Origin: Myxococcales bacterium
GTDB lineage: Bacteria > Myxococcota_A > Polyangia > Polyangiales > JAFGIB01
Direction of reading: 5' to 3'
DNA length: 64,000 nucleotides
Assembly: GCA_029880325.1 (NCBI GenBank)
Contig: JAOUOP010000021.1
Coordinates: forward strand, 1-64,000
The position numbers were made by a program, and so were the translations under genes. The notes beneath the pieces were generated by a model. It saw only the letters and a program-made list of their open reading frames with translations. It was not told where the DNA came from and made no database searches. Shown here one piece after another: positions 16,408 through 61,396 of the stretch (within the stretch, counting starts at the first letter, position 1; each line of letters opens with the position of its first letter).

Positions 16408-16500
16408 TGTTGCCTCCAATGAAACAGCCATGTGTTGCCTATCAGACAACATCCCCTGTTGCCTCCAGTGAAACATGGGGGTGTTGCCTTTCAGACAACA
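16408..16500. promoter_or_regulatory. Four phased 19-bp imperfect palindromes, likely enhancer-binding sites
   Basis: Four copies of a 19-bp unit: TGTTGCCTCCAATGAAACA (16408-16426), TGTTGCCTATCAGACAACA (16433-16451), TGTTGCCTCCAGTGAAACA (16457-16475) and TGTTGCCTTTCAGACAACA (16482-16500). Start-to-start spacing is 25, 24 and 25 bp. Types alternate, copies 1 and 3 resembling each other and 2 and 4 resembling each other. Each is an inverted repeat of TGTTG/CAACA or a weaker form. They sit 72-164 bp upstream of a consensus sigma54 promoter (16572), the normal place for sites of a bacterial enhancer-binding protein. The protein that binds is unknown. Confidence 0.75.
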
Positions 16501-16571
16501 ACGGCCCCGCAGCTGGCAGGACCGGGGGCGAAAGACGCATATCGGCGCAAGAATGTGTCCTCGCCCGGGCC

Positions 16572-16587
16572 TGGCACGAAGGTTGCT
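16572..16587 (+). promoter_or_regulatory. Sigma54 (-24/-12) promoter of the NGL-repeat lipoprotein
   Basis: TGGCACG-AAGG-TTGCT, a full match to the TGGCACG-N4-TTGCW consensus with GG and GC ten bases apart. Predicted transcription start about 16598, 64 bases before the ATG at 16662, which has a strong AGGAGG ribosome site. Confidence 0.85.
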
Positions 16588-34923: not shown

Positions 34924-34972
34924 CGCCGCGTGGTACCAAGGCCGCGCCGCGTGGTACCAAGGCCGCGCCGCG
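34924..34972. repeat. 21-bp tandem repeat with TGGTACCA core
   Basis: Unit CGCCGCGTGGTACCAAGGCCG (21 bp) repeated 2.3 times. Each full unit has the palindrome TGGTACCA, exactly two helical turns apart, so a protein bound to both would sit on the same face of DNA. It abuts the GGAACCG palindromes. Confidence 0.8.
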
Positions 34973-35018
34973 GAACCGAATCGGTTCCCGATCAGCACAC
35001 AGAACGGTTCCGGTTCCG
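34972..35018. promoter_or_regulatory. GGAACCG-type palindromes, probable activator sites (locus A)
   Basis: GGAACCGAATCGGTTCC (34972-34988), a perfect 17-bp dyad, then GAACGGTTCCGGTTCCG (35002-35018). They are 75-121 bp upstream of the -24 box at 35093. The same GGAAC...GTTCC dyad recurs at 52536-52623 and 61369-61396, again upstream of sigma54 promoters. Confidence 0.65.
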
Positions 35019-35092: not shown

Positions 35093-35108
35093 TGGCATGC
35101 ATCTTGCT
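35093..35108 (+). promoter_or_regulatory. Sigma54 promoter of HATPase gene 1
   Basis: TGGCATG-CATC-TTGCT: all key bases of the -24/-12 consensus with one change in the -24 flank (C to T). Predicted start about 35119; the gene's ATG is at 35179. Confidence 0.75.
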
Positions 35109-35178: not shown

Positions 35179-35748
35179 ATGAATGCCTTCGAAAATCGAG
35201 CCGCAGCGCGCCCCTACACCGGTGCCATCTTTCGCAGACTTTCGGTCACTGATTCACGGGACGTGATCACGGCGGTGAGTCACATGCGCGCGATGTGTCT
35301 TCGAGCGGGGCTGCCGCAGATTCGCCGCTCGGTGGCGATCGTCGCGGTGCATCAGCTGGCGGAAAACATCGTGCAGCACAGCAAGGGCGGGGCGATGGAG
35401 CTGACGCTGGGCGGCGACCGCCGCCGGCTGCGGATCACAGCTCACGACGAAGGCCCCGGCATCGTCGACGTGCAGGCCCTGCTGCAACAGACCCGCACCC
35501 GCGGTCCCCAGGGCTTGAGCGGTCTGGGCATCCTGCAGCGCCTGGCCCACATGTTCGACATGCGCAGCACGCCCGATGGAACCGTCGTTCGGCTCATGAT
35601 CGACCTGGAGCAGGGCGCCGCGAGCGACGTCAGGAGCGACAACGATCCGGAGTCGGCCTCGCCCCACGCCCGCATCAGCGGCATCTGCTACCGAGGCGTG
35701 ACGTTTACCAGCGCGCAACCGCTGTCTGCCACCCGCACGCGACGCTAA
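35179..35748 (+). CDS. HATPase_c (RsbW/anti-sigma-like) protein 1
   Basis: 189 aa from ATG 35179 with GAGGT upstream. A single GHKL ATPase domain: N box VAIVAVHQLAENIVQHSKGG (Glu and Asn that hold Mg-ATP), G1 box DEGPGIV, G2 box GLSGLGILQRLA and the last strand DGTVVRLMIDLE. Size and layout fit serine-kinase-type anti-sigma or switch proteins (RsbW/RsbT/SpoIIAB) rather than a histidine kinase, since no H box is present. A C-terminal tail of about 40 residues is specific. It is a clear paralog of the protein at 51877-52380. First gene of module I, driven by a sigma54 promoter. A partner-switching role is an inference. Confidence 0.85.
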   Translation: MNAFENRAAARPYTGAIFRRLSVTDSRDVITAVSHMRAMCLRAGLPQIRRSVAIVAVHQLAENIVQHSKGGAMELTLGGDRRRLRITAHDEGPGIVDVQALLQQTRTRGPQGLSGLGILQRLAHMFDMRSTPDGTVVRLMIDLEQGAASDVRSDNDPESASPHARISGICYRGVTFTSAQPLSATRTRR

Positions 35749-45773: not shown

Positions 45774-47678
45774 TCAGGCCGAGGTGTACATGGTCTCGAT
45801 CAGCTCGGCGTAGCGTGCATGAACGTGGCTGCGACGCACCTTCTGCGTCGGTGTCAGCTCGCCTTCTTCCTGCTGCAGCTGCCGCGGAAGAATGCGGAAG
45901 CTGCGAACCTGTTCGACCCGTGCCAGGACGTCATTGCACCGGGCGATCTCCTTGGCCAAAAGCGCCTGCACCTCGTCCTTGCTGGCCAGGTCCTGGTAGC
46001 TCGTGTATTGAATGCCCTGGCCCTGCGCCCAGTTGCCGACGGTGTCGTATTCGATCTGCACCAGCGCAGCGACGAACTTGCGGCGGTCACCGATGGCGAT
46101 CACTTCCTTGACGTAGGAGCTGGCCTTGAGCGCGTTTTCGATGCGCTCGGGAGACAGGTTCTTGCCCCCGGCGGTGATGATGATCTCTTTTTTGCGACCG
46201 GTGATCGTCAGGTAGCCGTCCTCGAGCTTTCCGACGTCACCCGTGTGCAGCCAACCGTCGCTGTCGATGGTGGCGCGCGTGGCCTCCTCGTCGTTCAGAT
46301 AGCCCACGAAGATCGACGGTCCGCGCAACAGGATCTCACCGTCGTCGGCGATGCGCTCTTCGATGCTGCGAATCGGCAGGCCCACGGTGCCCAGCCGCAC
46401 CTGCTCTGGCGGGTTGATGTGGCTGACGCCCGACAGCTCGGTCATGCCGTAGCCCTCGTGCACCAGAACGCCGAAGCTGCGAAACCACTCGAGCATCTCC
46501 GGTGCGATCGGCGCCGCACCGGTGGCTGCGAGCCGACAGCGGCGCAGCCCCAGGCGCTCCTGCAGCGCGCGATAGATCAGCATGTCGCCCAAAAACCACA
46601 TCACGCCGTCGATGGCCGTCGCCCGTCGTTCGCGGCGCCGCGTTTGAATCTCGTGGCCCTTTTCGAGGAAATACTTGGCGAGCGCGCGCTTGAGCCAGGA
46701 GGCGTTTTCAAGCTTGATGTTCACCGACGTGTGAATCTTTTCCCAGATTCGCGGCACGCCCAGAAAAAGCGTGGGCGAGACTTCGCGCAGGTCTTCTTGC
46801 ACGGTCTCGATCGACTCGCCGAAGTGCACCACCATGCCCTTGGTGAGCGGCAAAAAGACGCTGAAGATCTTTTCGGCCACGTGACACAGCGGCAGGTAGC
46901 TCAGCCCCTGTTCGTGGTCCTCGAACTCGATCAAGTCGGTGAAGGCATCGATCATCTCGCAGGCGTTGCGATTGGAGATCATGGCGCCCTTGGGGTGACC
47001 GGTGGTGCCGGAGGTGTAGACCACCATGGCTGGCGCATCGGGATCGAGCGCGGCGATGCAGCGGGTCATGAAGGCGCCGTCTCCGTCGAGCAGTGCTTCG
47101 CCCTGCGCCATGAAGTCGCGGTAGTGCAAAAGTCGGGCATCGGAGTAGCCACGGGTGCCCCGCGGATCGAAGACGACGACCTTTTCGAGTGCCGGCAGCT
47201 GGTCGGCGACGGCCATGAATTTGTCGACCTGCTCCTGATCCTCGCAGAACAGCACTTTGCTGCCGCTGTGGTTGAGCAGGTAGGCCACATCGGAAGCGGG
47301 ACTGGTGGCGTACAGGCCGACGCTGCGAGCGCCCAGCGCTTGCGCGGCCAGGTCGGCGTAGAGCCACTGGGGTCGGTTGTCGCTGAGGATGGCGATGTGA
47401 TCACCGGGACCGAGACCGCATTCGGCGAGCATACGCGCGGCGGCGCTCACATTGCGATAGTACTGGGCCCATGTGATCTCCTCCCACAGCCCCAGGCGCT
47501 TGTGACGCAGGGCCGGCTCGTGGCCGCGGGTGAGGGCGAAGGCGCGCAAACGACCCGGTAGCGTCGGTTCCAGACGCGGCTTTCCGTCTGCGGGCGCTTC
47601 GTTGAGGTGACGGGCGCGCGCGCTGTCGGGGCGCGGGGAGTTGGCTGCTGCAGGAGCTTGGGAGGGTGAGCTGGACAT
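45774..47678 (-). CDS. AMP-binding long-chain acyl-CoA synthetase
   Basis: 634 aa from ATG 47678 (GGAGG nine bases upstream; a GTG two codons earlier is too close to it). ANL-superfamily motifs: P-loop MVVYTSGTTGHPKGAMISN, YLPLCHVAEKIF, GYGMTELSGVSHIN, the TGDVGKLEDGYLTITGRKKEIIITAGGKNLSPE stretch and the C-terminal hinge. This is the FadD15/long-chain group, which activates fatty acids to acyl-CoA via acyl-AMP. It is the only metabolic gene in the signalling region and separates the two modules. No linked beta-oxidation genes. Confidence 0.92.
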   Translation of the reverse strand: MSSSPSQAPAAANSPRPDSARARHLNEAPADGKPRLEPTLPGRLRAFALTRGHEPALRHKRLGLWEEITWAQYYRNVSAAARMLAECGLGPGDHIAILSDNRPQWLYADLAAQALGARSVGLYATSPASDVAYLLNHSGSKVLFCEDQEQVDKFMAVADQLPALEKVVVFDPRGTRGYSDARLLHYRDFMAQGEALLDGDGAFMTRCIAALDPDAPAMVVYTSGTTGHPKGAMISNRNACEMIDAFTDLIEFEDHEQGLSYLPLCHVAEKIFSVFLPLTKGMVVHFGESIETVQEDLREVSPTLFLGVPRIWEKIHTSVNIKLENASWLKRALAKYFLEKGHEIQTRRRERRATAIDGVMWFLGDMLIYRALQERLGLRRCRLAATGAAPIAPEMLEWFRSFGVLVHEGYGMTELSGVSHINPPEQVRLGTVGLPIRSIEERIADDGEILLRGPSIFVGYLNDEEATRATIDSDGWLHTGDVGKLEDGYLTITGRKKEIIITAGGKNLSPERIENALKASSYVKEVIAIGDRRKFVAALVQIEYDTVGNWAQGQGIQYTSYQDLASKDEVQALLAKEIARCNDVLARVEQVRSFRILPRQLQQEEGELTPTQKVRRSHVHARYAELIETMYTSA

Positions 47679-47806
47679 CGACACTGCCTCCAGGCCACCA
47701 CACTCGGCGCGTTGCGGCCGCTAGTTAAATGCAAACTCCATGGTAAGTCTCGATTGAATGAAATTGTTAATAAATCTACACTTGGAAGTAGATCGTAGAG
47801 GCAGGC

Positions 47807-51876: not shown

Positions 51877-52380
51877 CTAGCGACAGGGCTTCAGTGCGCT
51901 TCGGCCAACTTCGCCCTTGCCGCGGGCCTTCGGGTCCATGTTGATCGTCACCGCCACCGTGGTGCCCGAGGGCGAGGAGTGAAACTCGAATACGGTAGCC
52001 ACGTTCTGCACGATGCCGAGACCTCCGAGCCCGCTGGCCTTCGGCTTGAGACTGGCATGAAGCAGGGCCTCGGCGTGTTCGATGCCCGGCCCGCAGTCCT
52101 TGGCCAAGATGCGCAGGCTGCTGCGATCGGGGCTGACTCCGAGTTCGATGGCGCCACCTCCGGTGTACTGCACGATATTGTGTGCGAGCTCATGGGTGGC
52201 CACGATCGCCAGCGATCGGCGTAGGGGATGAAAGCCGCTGCTCGAGCACACCGCACGCACGTGCCGCAGCGCCATGGCGACGTCACGGGGGCCCTTCACA
52301 GCCAATCTGCGCGAGGTCGGGCTGTCATTGAAATCGGCCTCCGAAGGGGCCGTCCGTCGCGGGTCAGTGCTCTGGGTCAT
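51877..52380 (-). CDS. HATPase_c (RsbW/anti-sigma-like) protein 2
   Basis: 167 aa from ATG 52380, GGGGAG about nine bases upstream. GHKL motifs: LAIVATHELAHNIVQYTGGGAIEL (N box), DCGPGIEHAE (G1), GLGGLGIVQNVA (G2), SGTTVAVTINMD. No H box. Paralog of the protein at 35179: both begin the domain with a (G/S)xRDV...(A/S)xxH(V/M)RA segment and have the same Ala-Asn-Ile-Val-Gln N box. It is transcribed from a sigma54 promoter, divergent from the FHA gene at 52762. I infer an anti-sigma or phosphatase-activating switch role. Confidence 0.85.
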   Translation of the reverse strand: MTQSTDPRRTAPSEADFNDSPTSRRLAVKGPRDVAMALRHVRAVCSSSGFHPLRRSLAIVATHELAHNIVQYTGGGAIELGVSPDRSSLRILAKDCGPGIEHAEALLHASLKPKASGLGGLGIVQNVATVFEFHSSPSGTTVAVTINMDPKARGKGEVGRSALKPCR

Positions 52381-52437
52381 GTGCGATAACTCCCCATGTC
52401 CTTTGGTGATCGGTCTTGCACCTGCCATATAAGAGGC

Positions 52438-52453
52438 TGCAAGGCGCGTGCCA
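52438..52453 (-). promoter_or_regulatory. Sigma54 promoter of HATPase gene 2
   Basis: On the minus strand TGGCACG-CGCC-TTGCA, a full consensus match. Predicted start about 52427; ATG at 52380, so a leader of about 47 bases. Confidence 0.85.
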
Positions 52454-52535
52454 GCGACTGAAAGTGAAGGCAGCCTCCTTTTCTTCGGGGTATAGACGGC
52501 GGCCAGCGCTGCTAGCGCGGGGCGGGGGCGGATCC

Positions 52536-52623
52536 GGAACGGATCGCGTTCCCCTGGGGGAACGCTCTCGGGGCGGCGCGATGGGCTGGAACTGGAGAAC
52601 CGGATCCGTTCCCGGCACGGAAC
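52536..52623. promoter_or_regulatory. GGAAC-type palindromes shared by two divergent promoters (locus B)
   Basis: GGAACGGATCGCGTTCC (52536-52552) and GTTCCCGGCACGGAAC (52608-52623). They lie 83-170 bp from the HATPase 2 promoter and 74-161 bp from the FHA 2 promoter, at nearly mirror-image distances. Each is a dyad with GGAAC half-sites; a further partial copy is near 52560. Confidence 0.65.
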
Positions 52624-52696
52624 AGGGGGCGTTCTCGGTGCACCTGCGGTTTGTGTGCTGCACCCTTTTTTTGCGGGATTTTGCCTTGCTGATTTC

Positions 52697-52712
52697 TGGC
52701 ACGCACCTTGCA
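52697..52712 (+). promoter_or_regulatory. Sigma54 promoter of FHA gene 2
   Basis: TGGCACG-CACC-TTGCA, a full consensus match. Predicted start about 52723; ATG at 52762 preceded by GAGGAG, leader about 39 bases. Confidence 0.85.
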
Positions 52713-52761
52713 GCTAAGTCTGGGCACAGCCCACGGCGGCGATAGTTAGGCGAGGAGAACG

Positions 52762-53385
52762 ATGCTCGGTACACAGATGCGAACCCATTGGCTTCCGGCG
52801 AAAGTCCTGCATCCCTTGAAGCAGCTGCCGGAATACCTGCTCGAGGATCGCCCGCGCACGTTCTTTCTCCTGGTGACCGTCGCTGACCGCGCCGATCTGC
52901 TGGCGGGTCTGGTCCAGAGCGATCAACGGGGTCCGGTACACCGCAACCGCAACAGCATCGACGAGCTGCGTACCTGCTTTGCAGAGCCCGACGACCTCAG
53001 GAGCCGAATGGGCTCCAAGTTTCCGGTCGGCTCGGAGTTCGAGCGGCTGCGGGCGCTGAAGAATGAGCCACAGTACGTCGTGAAGGTGGAAAAGCGCGCC
53101 AACAGCACCTCCTTCATGCGCAAGATCACCCTGGGTCGCACGCGCAACCACGACATCGTGCTGCGAGATCCGAGTGTCTCGAAGTTTCACGCGTCCTTTG
53201 AAGTGCTCGAAAACGATGAAGTGCTCCTGCACGACCACGGCAGCAGGAACCTGACCCGCGTCAACGGCATTTCGATCTCCCGTCCCACGCGCGTCTATCC
53301 CGGCGATGACATCTCTTTTGGAAAGGTACGAGCGACGCTGTGCACCGACCGTGGTCTGTGGCACAGCCTACGGAATGTTGCATGA
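52762..53385 (+). CDS. FHA-domain protein 2
   Basis: 207 aa, ATG 52762, ribosome site GAGGAG. An N-terminal ~110 residues of unknown fold (LKQLPEYLLEDRPRTFFLLVTVADRADLLAG...) and a C-terminal FHA domain: KITLGRTRNHDIVLRDPSVSKFHASFE has the Gly-Arg, Ser and His of a working phosphothreonine site, but the usual STNGT turn is SRNLTRVNG. Paralog of the 45116 protein. Its own sigma54 promoter faces HATPase 2 across a shared activator region, so the two should be made together. Confidence 0.9.
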   Translation: MLGTQMRTHWLPAKVLHPLKQLPEYLLEDRPRTFFLLVTVADRADLLAGLVQSDQRGPVHRNRNSIDELRTCFAEPDDLRSRMGSKFPVGSEFERLRALKNEPQYVVKVEKRANSTSFMRKITLGRTRNHDIVLRDPSVSKFHASFEVLENDEVLLHDHGSRNLTRVNGISISRPTRVYPGDDISFGKVRATLCTDRGLWHSLRNVA

Positions 53386-53918
53386 ACCCACCCGAGGGGA
53401 GGATAGCTGGCGCGAAATCGAAGTCCCACGCGCCTGTCGGCTCGAACACACCAGGCCTTCAAGGTTTTGGCAGGCGCAGCGCACCGTCCTGGAGCGTTGA
53501 GGTCACACCGAGACGCAAGCGGCACCATGGCGGTGCCCTGCGCCTGCCCTCTCTCGCGAAGCCGTGGTGTCTGCAAATCGATCGATCCACAAGAGCGCCG
53601 ATCGGTTTGCAGACACCGCAACTTCGCGGGTCTCGCGGGCGCAGCGCACCGTCACGGAGCGTTGAAGCCACACTTAAACGCATGCGGCACCGCGGTGGTG
53701 CGCTGCGCCCGCCCTCTCCCTCGCAAAGCCACGCTGCCCCCAGCGCCGTCGGAACACGAGTCCCCCGCCAGGGAAGTCCTGGCCGGTTGGGACGCCCGAT
53801 AAGGGGCCACCTGCGGCGTTGTCCTTCGCGAAAGGGGGCCTACCCTTCCTTCGTCGTCCGCCTTGAAGCGGACCCCGCCTCGAGCCCCCCAACCCATCAA
53901 GACCTCTGTGGCGGGGTA
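53386..53918. other. Repeat-bearing spacer between FHA 2 and the enhancer-binding protein gene
   Basis: 533 bases with no credible gene. The only structure seen is the repeat at 53473-53730 (direct copies plus a strong hairpin). The frames that stay open are Arg/Pro/Ala-rich echoes of that repeat. Confidence 0.5.
53473..53730. repeat. Intergenic 165-bp-period repeat with central hairpin (family copy II)
   Basis: A ~91-bp segment at 53473-53563 recurs at 53638-53730 with roughly 84% identity, 165 bp later. Between them is an 18-bp inverted repeat with a 14-base loop: GTGTCTGCAAATCGATCG (53567-53584) against 53599-53616, 17 of 18 paired, extendable outward with some mismatches. The motif GCGGCACC...CCTCTC aligns loosely with the repeat at 35951-36175, which has the same period. 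Confidence 0.65.
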
Positions 53919-55295
53919 CTAGCGGTACTGGCGATAGAGGCGCTGCAGGGACTTGGGATGCACCCCGACGTGCTCCGCCGCGGCGTCCACGTCGTCACCA
54001 AAGCGCTCCTGAACCAGCTGCACGTAGGCGGCGCGGTAGGCTTCGGTGGCGTCCTTGATGCCCATGGTGGCACCGACCAGATCGAGTCCGGGCGCCTGGC
54101 TGTTGGTGGTGATGGGGCGCATGACCTGCTTGCGATTGGCCTCCAGCTCCAACAGCAGCGCTTCATCGATCTGGCCTCCCTGGCACAGCGTCGCCGCGCG
54201 GCACAGGACGTTGCGCAGCTCGCGGACGTTGCCGGGCCAGGGGTGCTTGGCCAGATGCGCAAGCGCGCCCTCGGTCACGTCGATCTTCGGGAAGCCGCTG
54301 CGGTCCAGGATCGTGCGGACCAGCAGCGGAAGGTCACCCTCGCGTTGCGCGAGCGAAGGCAAAGGCGCGATCACCTCCGCCAGTCGATAGTAGAGGTCCT
54401 CCCGAAAGCGCCCGTCGTTGACCATGTCCTCGAGCCGGCGGTGGGTGGCGGCGATGACGCGCACGTCGACGGGCGTGGATTTGTTCGAGCCGATGCGCGT
54501 GACCTCGCGGCGCTCGAGCACGCGCAGGAGCTTGGGCTGCAGCTCCAGGGGCAGCTCACCGATTTCGTCGAGAAATACGCTGCCCTTGGCGGCCTCCTCG
54601 AAGGCCCCGGCGCGCGCCTCGTTGGCACCGGTGAAGGCGCCGCGCTGGTGACCGAAGAGCTTGTCCTCGATGAACTGCGGCCCGACCGCCGCGCAGTCGA
54701 TCACGATGAACGGTCCCTTGGCACGCTCGCTGTGTTGGTGGAGTGCCTGGGCGGCCAGTTCCTTGCCCGTACCGGTTTCGCCCTGGATCAACACGGTGAG
54801 ATTGCTGGGAGCGATCTTCTCAAGAAGGCCGAAGGTGCGGCGCATGGCCGGCGAGCGGCCGACCAGCTCACCGAACTCCTTCTTGCCGGAATGGACCGCA
54901 GCCACCCACTCCAGGGAGGACTCGAAGACGACCTCCGTCGACCCCACGGTGATCACGCTGCCCGGGTCGAGCATGACCTCCAGGATGCGCATTCCCTTGA
55001 CAAAGGTTCCGTTCTTGGAGCCCAGGTCCCTCAGAATGTAGCCCGCATCGGTGGCGACCACTTCGCAGTGGCAGCGGCTGACGCGCCGGTCACGGGGCCG
55101 AAGGTCGTTGGATGAACCGGTGCCGATCGTCACGCGCTGTGCTTCGACGTCGCAGGCAAGTCCCGCGCTGGGACCACGCTGTACGGCGAGGCGAATGCGG
55201 TGAGAGGGAAGATGGACGTACTTCTCGACACCGATGGTGTAGGTGGTTTCCGTCGTCGACGGGGGAATCGAGGATAGGCGCTGTCGGATACTCAC
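53919..55295 (-). CDS. FHA-domain sigma54-dependent enhancer-binding protein
   Basis: 458 aa. N-terminal FHA domain (about residues 35-125): [24 protein letters not shown] and [12 protein letters not shown]. The AAA+ sigma54-interaction domain is intact: Walker A GETGTGKE (172-179), the sigma54-contact loop GAFTGA (219-224), Walker [12 protein letters not shown] (239-249), arginine finger REDLYYRL and [12 protein letters not shown] short C-terminal helix-turn-helix ([24 protein letters not shown]) ends the protein. FHA instead of a receiver domain means it is probably switched by Thr phosphorylation, for which six kinase genes are in the window. It is the only activator of this type here and a good candidate to bind one of the palindrome families. 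Confidence 0.93.
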
Positions 55296-59657: not shown

Positions 59658-61142
59658 TCAGCGACAGCCGCCATGCGCACCGCCTCCATTAAAGTCCTCC
59701 GTGGCCGCTCGTCTGGCGCCGCGCAATGCCCCGGCCACGGACTCGAGCAATTTGCCTGGCAAGAAGGGCTTGGCGAGATGAACCGTGTCTTCGGGTACGG
59801 GGTTTTGTTTGCAGTCGAGGGCGGCATTCGAGAGCAGGACCAGCCCTGCACCGTCTCGCAGACCGCGATGGGCCTGTGCCAGGGCGGTCGTCCAGCTGTC
59901 CTCGGACGCCACAAACAGGCCCGGCGACAGCGCCTCGACCCCCAGGATGTCCAGTGCGGTGGCTGCGTCTCCGATCGACAGGACCCTGTGCCCCTCGGCG
60001 CGTAGGATACCCACGATCAGTTTTCGCAGCAGCGGGTCGTGCTCGACAACCAGGGCCGTCACCCGGCGCGGTGCCGCGGTCGGGACGCCGCTGAGGGAGG
60101 GCGCGGTCGAAGCGGTCGGTCGGCCGTCCCCCTGGTAGAGGGGCCACTCGATCTCGAATTCGGTGCCGCGCTTCATCTCGCTCTGCAGCCGGATCGTGCC
60201 CCCGCTGTCGCCAACGATCTCGTGCACCGTCGCCAGGCCGAGCCCCGTGCCCACGCCCGGAGCCTTGGTCGTGAAAAACGGTTCGAAGACCCGCGCGCGG
60301 GTCTCTTCATCCATGCCCTCGCCATTGTCGCGCACCAAAAGCCGCACCCACGGGCGTTGCTTGGCGTCGTTGACCGTTGTGGTGGAGATACTGACGACCC
60401 CACCCGATGGCATGGCGTCGCGGGCATTGACCGCCAGGTTGAGCAGCACTTGTCCGAGCTGGACGGGGTCGATTTCGACCAGTTGCTCTTCTGCAGACAG
60501 CTCGAGCCTCAGTTGCACTTCACGCCCCAGCAGGGGGTCGACGATGCGCACCAGGTCCCGGATGGCCGCATTGACTTCCAGCGGAGTCGGCGTGGCCGGG
60601 CGGGTTTGAGCGAAGCTCAGAACCTGGCGGATCAGCGCCGAAGCCTGGTCGCTGGCGTCGACGATGGCCAAGCAGGCGTCCTGGTCGCGCTCGTTGCTGG
60701 CGCGTCGGCGAAGGACGTCGGCGTAGCCGCGAATCACGGTCAAGAGATTGTTGAAGTCGTGGCTGATGCCACCGAGCAGGCGCCCCAGGGCGCTGAGATT
60801 GCGCTCCCGTTGCGACGCTTCGAGCAGGCGGCGCCCGGCTTCGCCCACCTGCCTTTCAGTCTTGAACAGGGCTGCTGATCGAACCACCAGCGCGTAGCCG
60901 AGGAAGATCAGCGGGGCTGCGATCACGATGCGGACCCAGAAATGGGTCGTCTGGACCGTTTCCGAACCCGGGGAGGCGCCCAGCAGTACCCAGAGCACCG
61001 CGCTCGCGGTCAAGACCGCGAGCGCGGCATCCAGGCTGCGCGCGTACAGGGAAGTGCGCGCGTGCCAACCACGGCTCGACCGGGGTCGGTCGGAGCTGCT
61101 CCCGTTGTCGGCGGCCGATGGCCGTCGCTTCTCGTTCACCAC
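59658..61142 (-). CDS. Membrane histidine kinase with degenerate receiver domain
   Basis: About 494 aa from GTG 61142 (or GTG 61139). Two membrane helices (LAVLTASAVLWVLLG and VRIVIAAPLIFLGYALVV) with a very short periplasmic loop. The kinase core is complete: H box GGISHDFNNLLTVIRG (His phosphoacceptor), N box LNLAVNARDAM, G1 DNGEGMDEE, F box VFEPFFTT, G2 GTGLGLATVHEI. The C-terminal ~120 residues look like a receiver (TALVVEHDPLLRKLIVGILRAEG) but the phospho-Asp position reads PGLFVAS, so it is not a normal phosphoacceptor. The hydrophobic-only sensor suggests intramembrane sensing. A sigma54 promoter lies directly in front of the GTG. Confidence 0.9.
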   Translation of the reverse strand: MVNEKRRPSAADNGSSSDRPRSSRGWHARTSLYARSLDAALAVLTASAVLWVLLGASPGSETVQTTHFWVRIVIAAPLIFLGYALVVRSAALFKTERQVGEAGRRLLEASQRERNLSALGRLLGGISHDFNNLLTVIRGYADVLRRRASNERDQDACLAIVDASDQASALIRQVLSFAQTRPATPTPLEVNAAIRDLVRIVDPLLGREVQLRLELSAEEQLVEIDPVQLGQVLLNLAVNARDAMPSGGVVSISTTTVNDAKQRPWVRLLVRDNGEGMDEETRARVFEPFFTTKAPGVGTGLGLATVHEIVGDSGGTIRLQSEMKRGTEFEIEWPLYQGDGRPTASTAPSLSGVPTAAPRRVTALVVEHDPLLRKLIVGILRAEGHRVLSIGDAATALDILGVEALSPGLFVASEDSWTTALAQAHRGLRDGAGLVLLSNAALDCKQNPVPEDTVHLAKPFLPGKLLESVAGALRGARRAATEDFNGGGAHGGCR

Positions 61143-61171: not shown

Positions 61172-61368
61172 GTTGGCGCGCGGCTGGGGACGGTTTCCGC
61201 GCCGAGTGCCCGGGGCGATTGCCGAAGGCTGCACCTGGGCGGCCGATGTTCTTGTAACTACAGGGATTTCTCGCGAACCAGTCAGAGCCGGAGGGGCTGA
61301 CGGCCCGGGCTTGACGGGGGCAAGCGGGCGACTTCTGCCGCTCCGGGGCCCCTGCTCGGCACCCAACG

Positions 61369-61396
61369 GGTTCCGCGCGGAACCGTTTTGGTTCCG
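61369..61396. promoter_or_regulatory. GGAACC-type palindromes (locus C)
   Basis: GGTTCCGCGCGGAACC (61369-61384) is a perfect 16-bp dyad; CGGAACC-N5-GGTTCCG (61378-61396) overlaps it. They lie 198-225 bp upstream of the -24 box at 61171 on the minus strand, far but acceptable for a sigma54 activator. Confidence 0.6.

Follow-up and report, generated by a model that had tools for sequence, protein, structure and literature searches.

The genes for HATPase 2 and FHA 2 face away from each other within a 64-kb window, which is the whole stretch of Myxococcales DNA analysed here (64,000 nucleotides). This locus raises the question of whether a single activator, bound between the two genes, switches both of them on. 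A well-favoured answer is that the intervening DNA acts as a bidirectional sigma54 control region, in which one sigma54 activator (EBP) would use two dyads to activate both genes together with a small signalling regulon.

Predicted divergent promoters and the dyads between them

The two genes and their predicted promoters are arranged as follows.
51877-52380, minus strand: HATPase 2 gene, encoding an RsbW/RsbA-like ATPase of 167 aa, likely start ATG 52380
52453-52438, minus strand: predicted sigma54 promoter box of HATPase 2, TGGCACGCGCCTTGCA, exact consensus
52697-52712, plus strand: predicted sigma54 promoter box of FHA 2, TGGCACGCACCTTGCA, exact consensus
52762-53385, plus strand: FHA 2 gene, encoding a protein of 207 aa (PF00498, 1.3e-15)

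Both boxes had been placed correctly by the initial annotation and match the consensus pattern used, TGGCACGNNNNTTGCW, at every position. Each has GG at -24 and GC at -12 with the fixed spacing of the sigma54 class (TGGCACG-N4-TTGCW), and the two are predicted to be active sigma54 promoters. A search of the divergent region for a sigma70-like promoter found none. Across the genome (8.16 Mb, 156 contigs), there are 18 exact matches to the pattern versus 1 for the reversed control. Four of the 18 fall inside the window, where an even spread predicts 0.14. The gene for sigma54 itself, rpoN, is present in a single copy (one PF04552 match, on C53). A further exact box in the window lies at 16572 on the plus strand (region 16440-16587). 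It is preceded by four TGTTGCCT-N-CAACA/AAACA-type repeats, a different activator motif, and the gene downstream encodes a product with many NGLKAI repeats.

The likely start of HATPase 2 is preceded by the Shine-Dalgarno sequence GGGGAG. The reading frame opens at 52428, which is not the start because it lies too near the -12 element. The protein scores 33.6 bits against PF13581 (HATPase_c_2), above the Pfam cut-off of 27.4. It is not assigned to a named anti-sigma subfamily, the RsbA_anti_sig score of 31.8 lying below the cut-off of 210. The surrounding cluster encodes four large Ser/Thr kinase-AAA proteins (36492, 40961, 47807 and 55625), two HATPases, two FHA proteins and one histidine kinase.

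Four elements between the promoters concern the putative activator.
52536-52552: dyad 1, GGAACGGATCGCGTTCC, of the form GGAAC-N7-GTTCC, second-best matrix match in the region
52596-52612: dyad 2, AGAACCGGATCCGTTCC, best matrix match in the region
52619-52635: weak candidate for a third dyad, GGAACAGGGGGCGTTCT, at a distance of 23 bp from dyad 2, matrix score 5.1
52559-52563: isolated GGAAC half-site, lying 23 bp from where dyad 1 begins

Dyads 1 and 2 both fit one 17-bp motif, (A/G)GAACCG-N3-CGGTTCC, and deviate from the consensus more than most regulon sites do. The weak dyad at 52619-52635 is also picked up by the degenerate composite pattern described below. As partial partners of the strong dyads, the lesser sites have matrix scores of 5.1 and 3.75.

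Dyad 1 had been recognized in the initial annotation and is real. The second dyad proposed there, at 52608-52623, is superseded by dyad 2. Its sequence, GTTCC-N6-GGAAC, cannot be a second copy of dyad 1 because the polarity is opposite; its first arm is the right half of dyad 2, and its second arm is the left half of the weak site 52619-52635. Elements of this type show no genomic enrichment, with 5 occurrences compared with 7 of the reversed control, and no other genomic copy lies near a sigma54 box.

The correction alters the geometry of the region. All four distances given previously were arithmetically right, and the placement of the second site was not, so that the earlier mirror of 83/155 and 74/145 bp becomes a closer one. 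Near edges of the strong dyads now lie 83 and 143 bp from the minus-strand -24 element, and 85 and 145 bp from its plus-strand counterpart. This arrangement is a near-perfect mirror, with both dyads at an ordinary sigma54 enhancer distance from both promoters. The possibility that the entire control region is an inverted duplication was considered and rejected: apart from the boxes and dyads, its halves resemble each other no more closely than shuffled sequence does.

A motif common to five predicted sigma54 promoters

The same motif is found ahead of sigma54 boxes elsewhere in the window and at one locus beyond it.
34972-34988: first of two dyads preceding HATPase 1, GGAACCGAATCGGTTCC, which alone in the genome matches the motif exactly
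35001-35017: second of the dyads preceding HATPase 1, AGAACGGTTCCGGTTCC
35093-35108, plus strand: sigma54 box of HATPase 1, TGGCATGCATCTTGCT, one mismatch
35179-35748, plus strand: HATPase 1 gene, product 45% identical to HATPase 2
59658-61142, minus strand: gene for a histidine kinase with HisKA and HATPase_c domains; its start is uncertain, a GTG near 61142 being the probable codon
61171-61156, minus strand: sigma54 box of the histidine kinase, TGGCACGGCACTTGCT, exact consensus
61358-61374: second of two dyads preceding the histidine kinase, GGCACCCAACGGGTTCC
61379-61395: dyad upstream of the histidine kinase, GGAACCGTTTTGGTTCC
Contig C129, 63224 and 63241: dyad and abutting second copy, 43 bp upstream of a sigma54 box, TGGCACCGCGCTTGCA

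A consensus, GGAACCGNNNCGGTTCC, was written from the window sites and then searched genome-wide. Outside the window it occurs in three places with at most one mismatch, one of which is C129:63224. The gene behind the box at that locus (L017 on C129, 1443-1534) encodes a Stp1-type PP2C phosphatase and contributes the fifth regulon promoter. Motif pairs accompany five sigma54 boxes, 43-208 bp upstream, and never overlap the box. Spacing inside the pairs varies (17, 21, 29 and 60 bp), with no fixed helical phase. The genome has 14 other exact sigma54 boxes, and the motif precedes none of them. Repeated dyads of one type, upstream and at looping distance, have the form of an EBP enhancer (UAS), and these are predicted sites of that kind. 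The second FHA gene of the cluster, FHA 1 (45116), has neither a sigma54 box nor a dyad in its upstream region.

Two additional matches to the motif are located inside the FHA 2 gene, downstream of its promoter and within coding sequence.
52780-52796: candidate extra site, CGAACCCATTGGCTTCC, matrix score 16.4
53000-53016: candidate extra site, GGAGCCGAATGGGCTCC, matrix score 18.1

Dense GGYACC-type palindromic repeats on another contig (L028, C52:4010-7026) imitate the motif by chance. This region was rejected as a motif locus, its motif and relaxed-box matches being due only to the local GGYACCG-type repeat.

The strength of the motif was assessed with a symmetrised matrix derived from six sites, none of them in the divergent region. 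Within that region the matrix ranks 52596 first and 52536 second. In 5000 dinucleotide shuffles of the inter-box DNA, the best score was reached once and the second and summed scores never, in a test that is not fully blind because the six sites were picked for GGAAC likeness; finding sites by that likeness is partly circular. Over the window, eight sites score at least 16, compared with 0.13 per 64 kb from window shuffles, and the next best scores 10.2. Four of the eight belong to the training set; dyads 1 and 2 and the pair of sites inside FHA 2 make up the rest.

A composite pattern joins a sigma54 box, 41-101 bases and a degenerate dyad. In the 8.16-Mb genome it matches only the HATPase 1, HATPase 2, FHA 2 and PP2C promoters; as these promoters were the ones used to fit it, what counts is that no others match. 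The 317 other genomes of the class yield nine scattered matches in total, and the reversed control yields 3 over the whole genome set. On contigs of unrelated genomes 54 matches were obtained, which is roughly the chance level. Each has one strong dyad, the exception being L213, with weak extra matches.

Six genomes of the same family were searched for the motif with one mismatch allowed. The matches are scattered, and the sole one near a box adjoins a poor box with two mismatches. HATPase 2 has a single weak match in these six genomes (29% identical, G009), for which reason the regulon looks lineage-specific. Neither the motif nor HATPase 2 is conserved in the nearest relatives, and the system consequently leaves no evolutionary footprint.

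The candidate activator

The gene adjoining FHA 2 encodes a protein of the type needed to serve these promoters.
53919-55295, minus strand: FHA-AAA+-HTH sigma54 activator (EBP), complete gene, convergent with FHA 2

The protein comprises an N-terminal FHA domain (55-118; PF00498, 1.5e-15), an AAA+ domain (144-308; PF00158, 1.4e-67) and an AAA lid. Walker A (GETGTGKE) and GAFTGA motifs are intact. The HTH was read by eye from the C-terminal tail, where no HTH model matched. These features (AAA+, Walker A, GAFTGA and HTH) are those of an EBP. The canonical phosphothreonine-binding residues of an FHA domain are G-R, S, H and N; here S, H and N are kept and the Arg of G-R is replaced by Thr, a position at which relatives have Lys or Thr. 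Phosphothreonine reading is therefore plausible. A long plus-strand open reading frame over the EBP gene, 53340-55115, is spurious, the EBP being encoded on the minus strand. The plus-strand frame 45819-47561 is likewise spurious and covers a minus-strand acyl-CoA ligase gene (45774-47684).

On the evidence of its position, this EBP is most likely the shared activator, and it is the best candidate available. Strong matches to the EBP class number about 30 in this genome, and the assignment therefore rests on neighbourhood. Co-location of an EBP with its targets is the usual rule for assigning sigma54 regulons (PMC4641369). A different EBP of the genome might instead bind the dyads, leaving the FHA-EBP to act elsewhere. 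The size of the EBP repertoire leaves room for this alternative, and the start of the FHA-EBP gene itself, with neither a strong motif nor a sigma54 box, is in keeping with it. It is nevertheless rather unlikely, given the co-location rule and the character of the DNA-binding domain. The nearest family EBPs are 39-52% identical to the protein and have clearly different C-terminal tails. An HTH unlike that of the relatives agrees with the motif being private to this genome.

The proposed shared switch and its relation to known systems

With the FHA-EBP as the presumed activator, we infer the following mechanism from sequence. (i) Sigma54 RNA polymerase would rest in the closed state at the two outward-facing, exact -24/-12 boxes. 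(ii) One EBP would recognize the 17-bp dyad RGAACCGNNNCGGTTCC at 52536-52552 and 52596-52612, between the promoters. (iii) The dyad-bound EBP would act by looping to open both promoters, so that HATPase 2 and FHA 2 would be on under the same condition. (iv) The same activator would also serve HATPase 1, the histidine kinase and the PP2C phosphatase, forming a small signalling regulon. (v) The activator would most likely be the FHA-AAA+-HTH protein of 53919-55295, the FHA domain of which suggests input from the neighbouring Ser/Thr kinases. The proposal of one activator for both promoters, made in the initial annotation, is well supported by the symmetric sites of a single type and by the presence of the motif at the HATPase 1, histidine kinase and PP2C boxes. 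The extent of the system had been underestimated: the wider regulon and the EBP gene beside FHA 2 were both missed.

The two strong dyads might also be divided between the genes. Two UAS modules for the same protein would then stand back to back, dyad 1 and the half-site at 52559 acting on HATPase 2, and dyad 2 with 52619-52635 acting on FHA 2, with no sites in common. In favour of such modules, a partial partner accompanies each strong dyad at 23 bp. Where the regulon has a single promoter, a dyad pair precedes it, and a mirror layout would suit two copies. The partners are weak, however, whereas elsewhere in the regulon every promoter has a pair of strong dyads, and dyads 1 and 2 are within ordinary enhancer reach of both promoters. 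On balance a division of the sites is unlikely, and shared use of the two dyads is preferred.

Palindromes of this size suit many regulators, and the dyads might be operators for a repressor or other regulator unrelated to sigma54 activation. Their positions, upstream of sigma54 boxes and never overlapping them, make this very improbable. EBPs bind at such upstream positions, and repressors usually do not. An accidental origin of boxes and dyads in GC-rich DNA, where relaxed matches to either pattern (up to 3 mismatches) are common, is scarcely credible in view of the excess of exact boxes over the control, a summed matrix score that no shuffle equalled and a composite pattern nearly unique to this genome.

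Divergent sigma54 promoters with common activator sites are already known; this case appears to be lineage-specific. The orp1 and orp2 operons of Desulfovibrio vulgaris are divergent sigma54 operons controlled by the EBP DVU2106, for which DVU2106-dependence, the need for IHF and promoter activity have been measured (PMC3897727). The present locus resembles them in that two divergent sigma54 units are predicted to be co-activated by one EBP via palindromes, with the EBP gene in the cluster. There are also differences. DVU2106 belongs to the orp cluster itself, whereas the EBP here is convergent with one target. The EBP here has an FHA domain, and the predicted regulon reaches other loci. A second likeness is to Desulfovibrio T3SS operons, where one predicted EBP motif lies in an upstream region common to two sigma54 promoters; the EBP class and the genes differ, and the motif there is likewise only predicted.

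EBPs carrying an FHA domain are known in myxobacteria; those of Myxococcus xanthus were reportedly described by Jelsbak et al. (PNAS, 2005; cited in PMC4320627). In common with these, the candidate is a sigma54 activator with FHA, AAA+ and HTH parts in a genome rich in Ser/Thr kinases. Unlike them, it is proposed here together with target sites and a phospho-signalling regulon, and its HTH differs from that of its family relatives. No worked-out binding motif for an FHA-domain EBP was found in the literature searched. For one such activator, the present analysis supplies a binding motif that can be tested, along with a short list of targets, and the target set is more interesting than the divergent arrangement. 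The putative targets are phospho-signalling proteins which, if the assignment is true, would couple sigma54 transcription to signalling by Ser/Thr kinases, with feedback.

A more speculative extension, which we regard as doubtful, is a closed circuit. Ser/Thr kinases of the cluster would signal through the FHA domain of the EBP to sigma54, and hence to a private, nearly all-signalling regulon of two RsbW-like ATPases, an FHA reader, a histidine kinase and a PP2C phosphatase. Negative feedback would come from the phosphatase, and the divergent promoters would keep the ratio of ATPase to FHA reader fixed. Elsewhere in the genome, several near-consensus sigma54 boxes occur within 4 kb (G000:C103:162228-166249) around another EBP gene (C103:163058).
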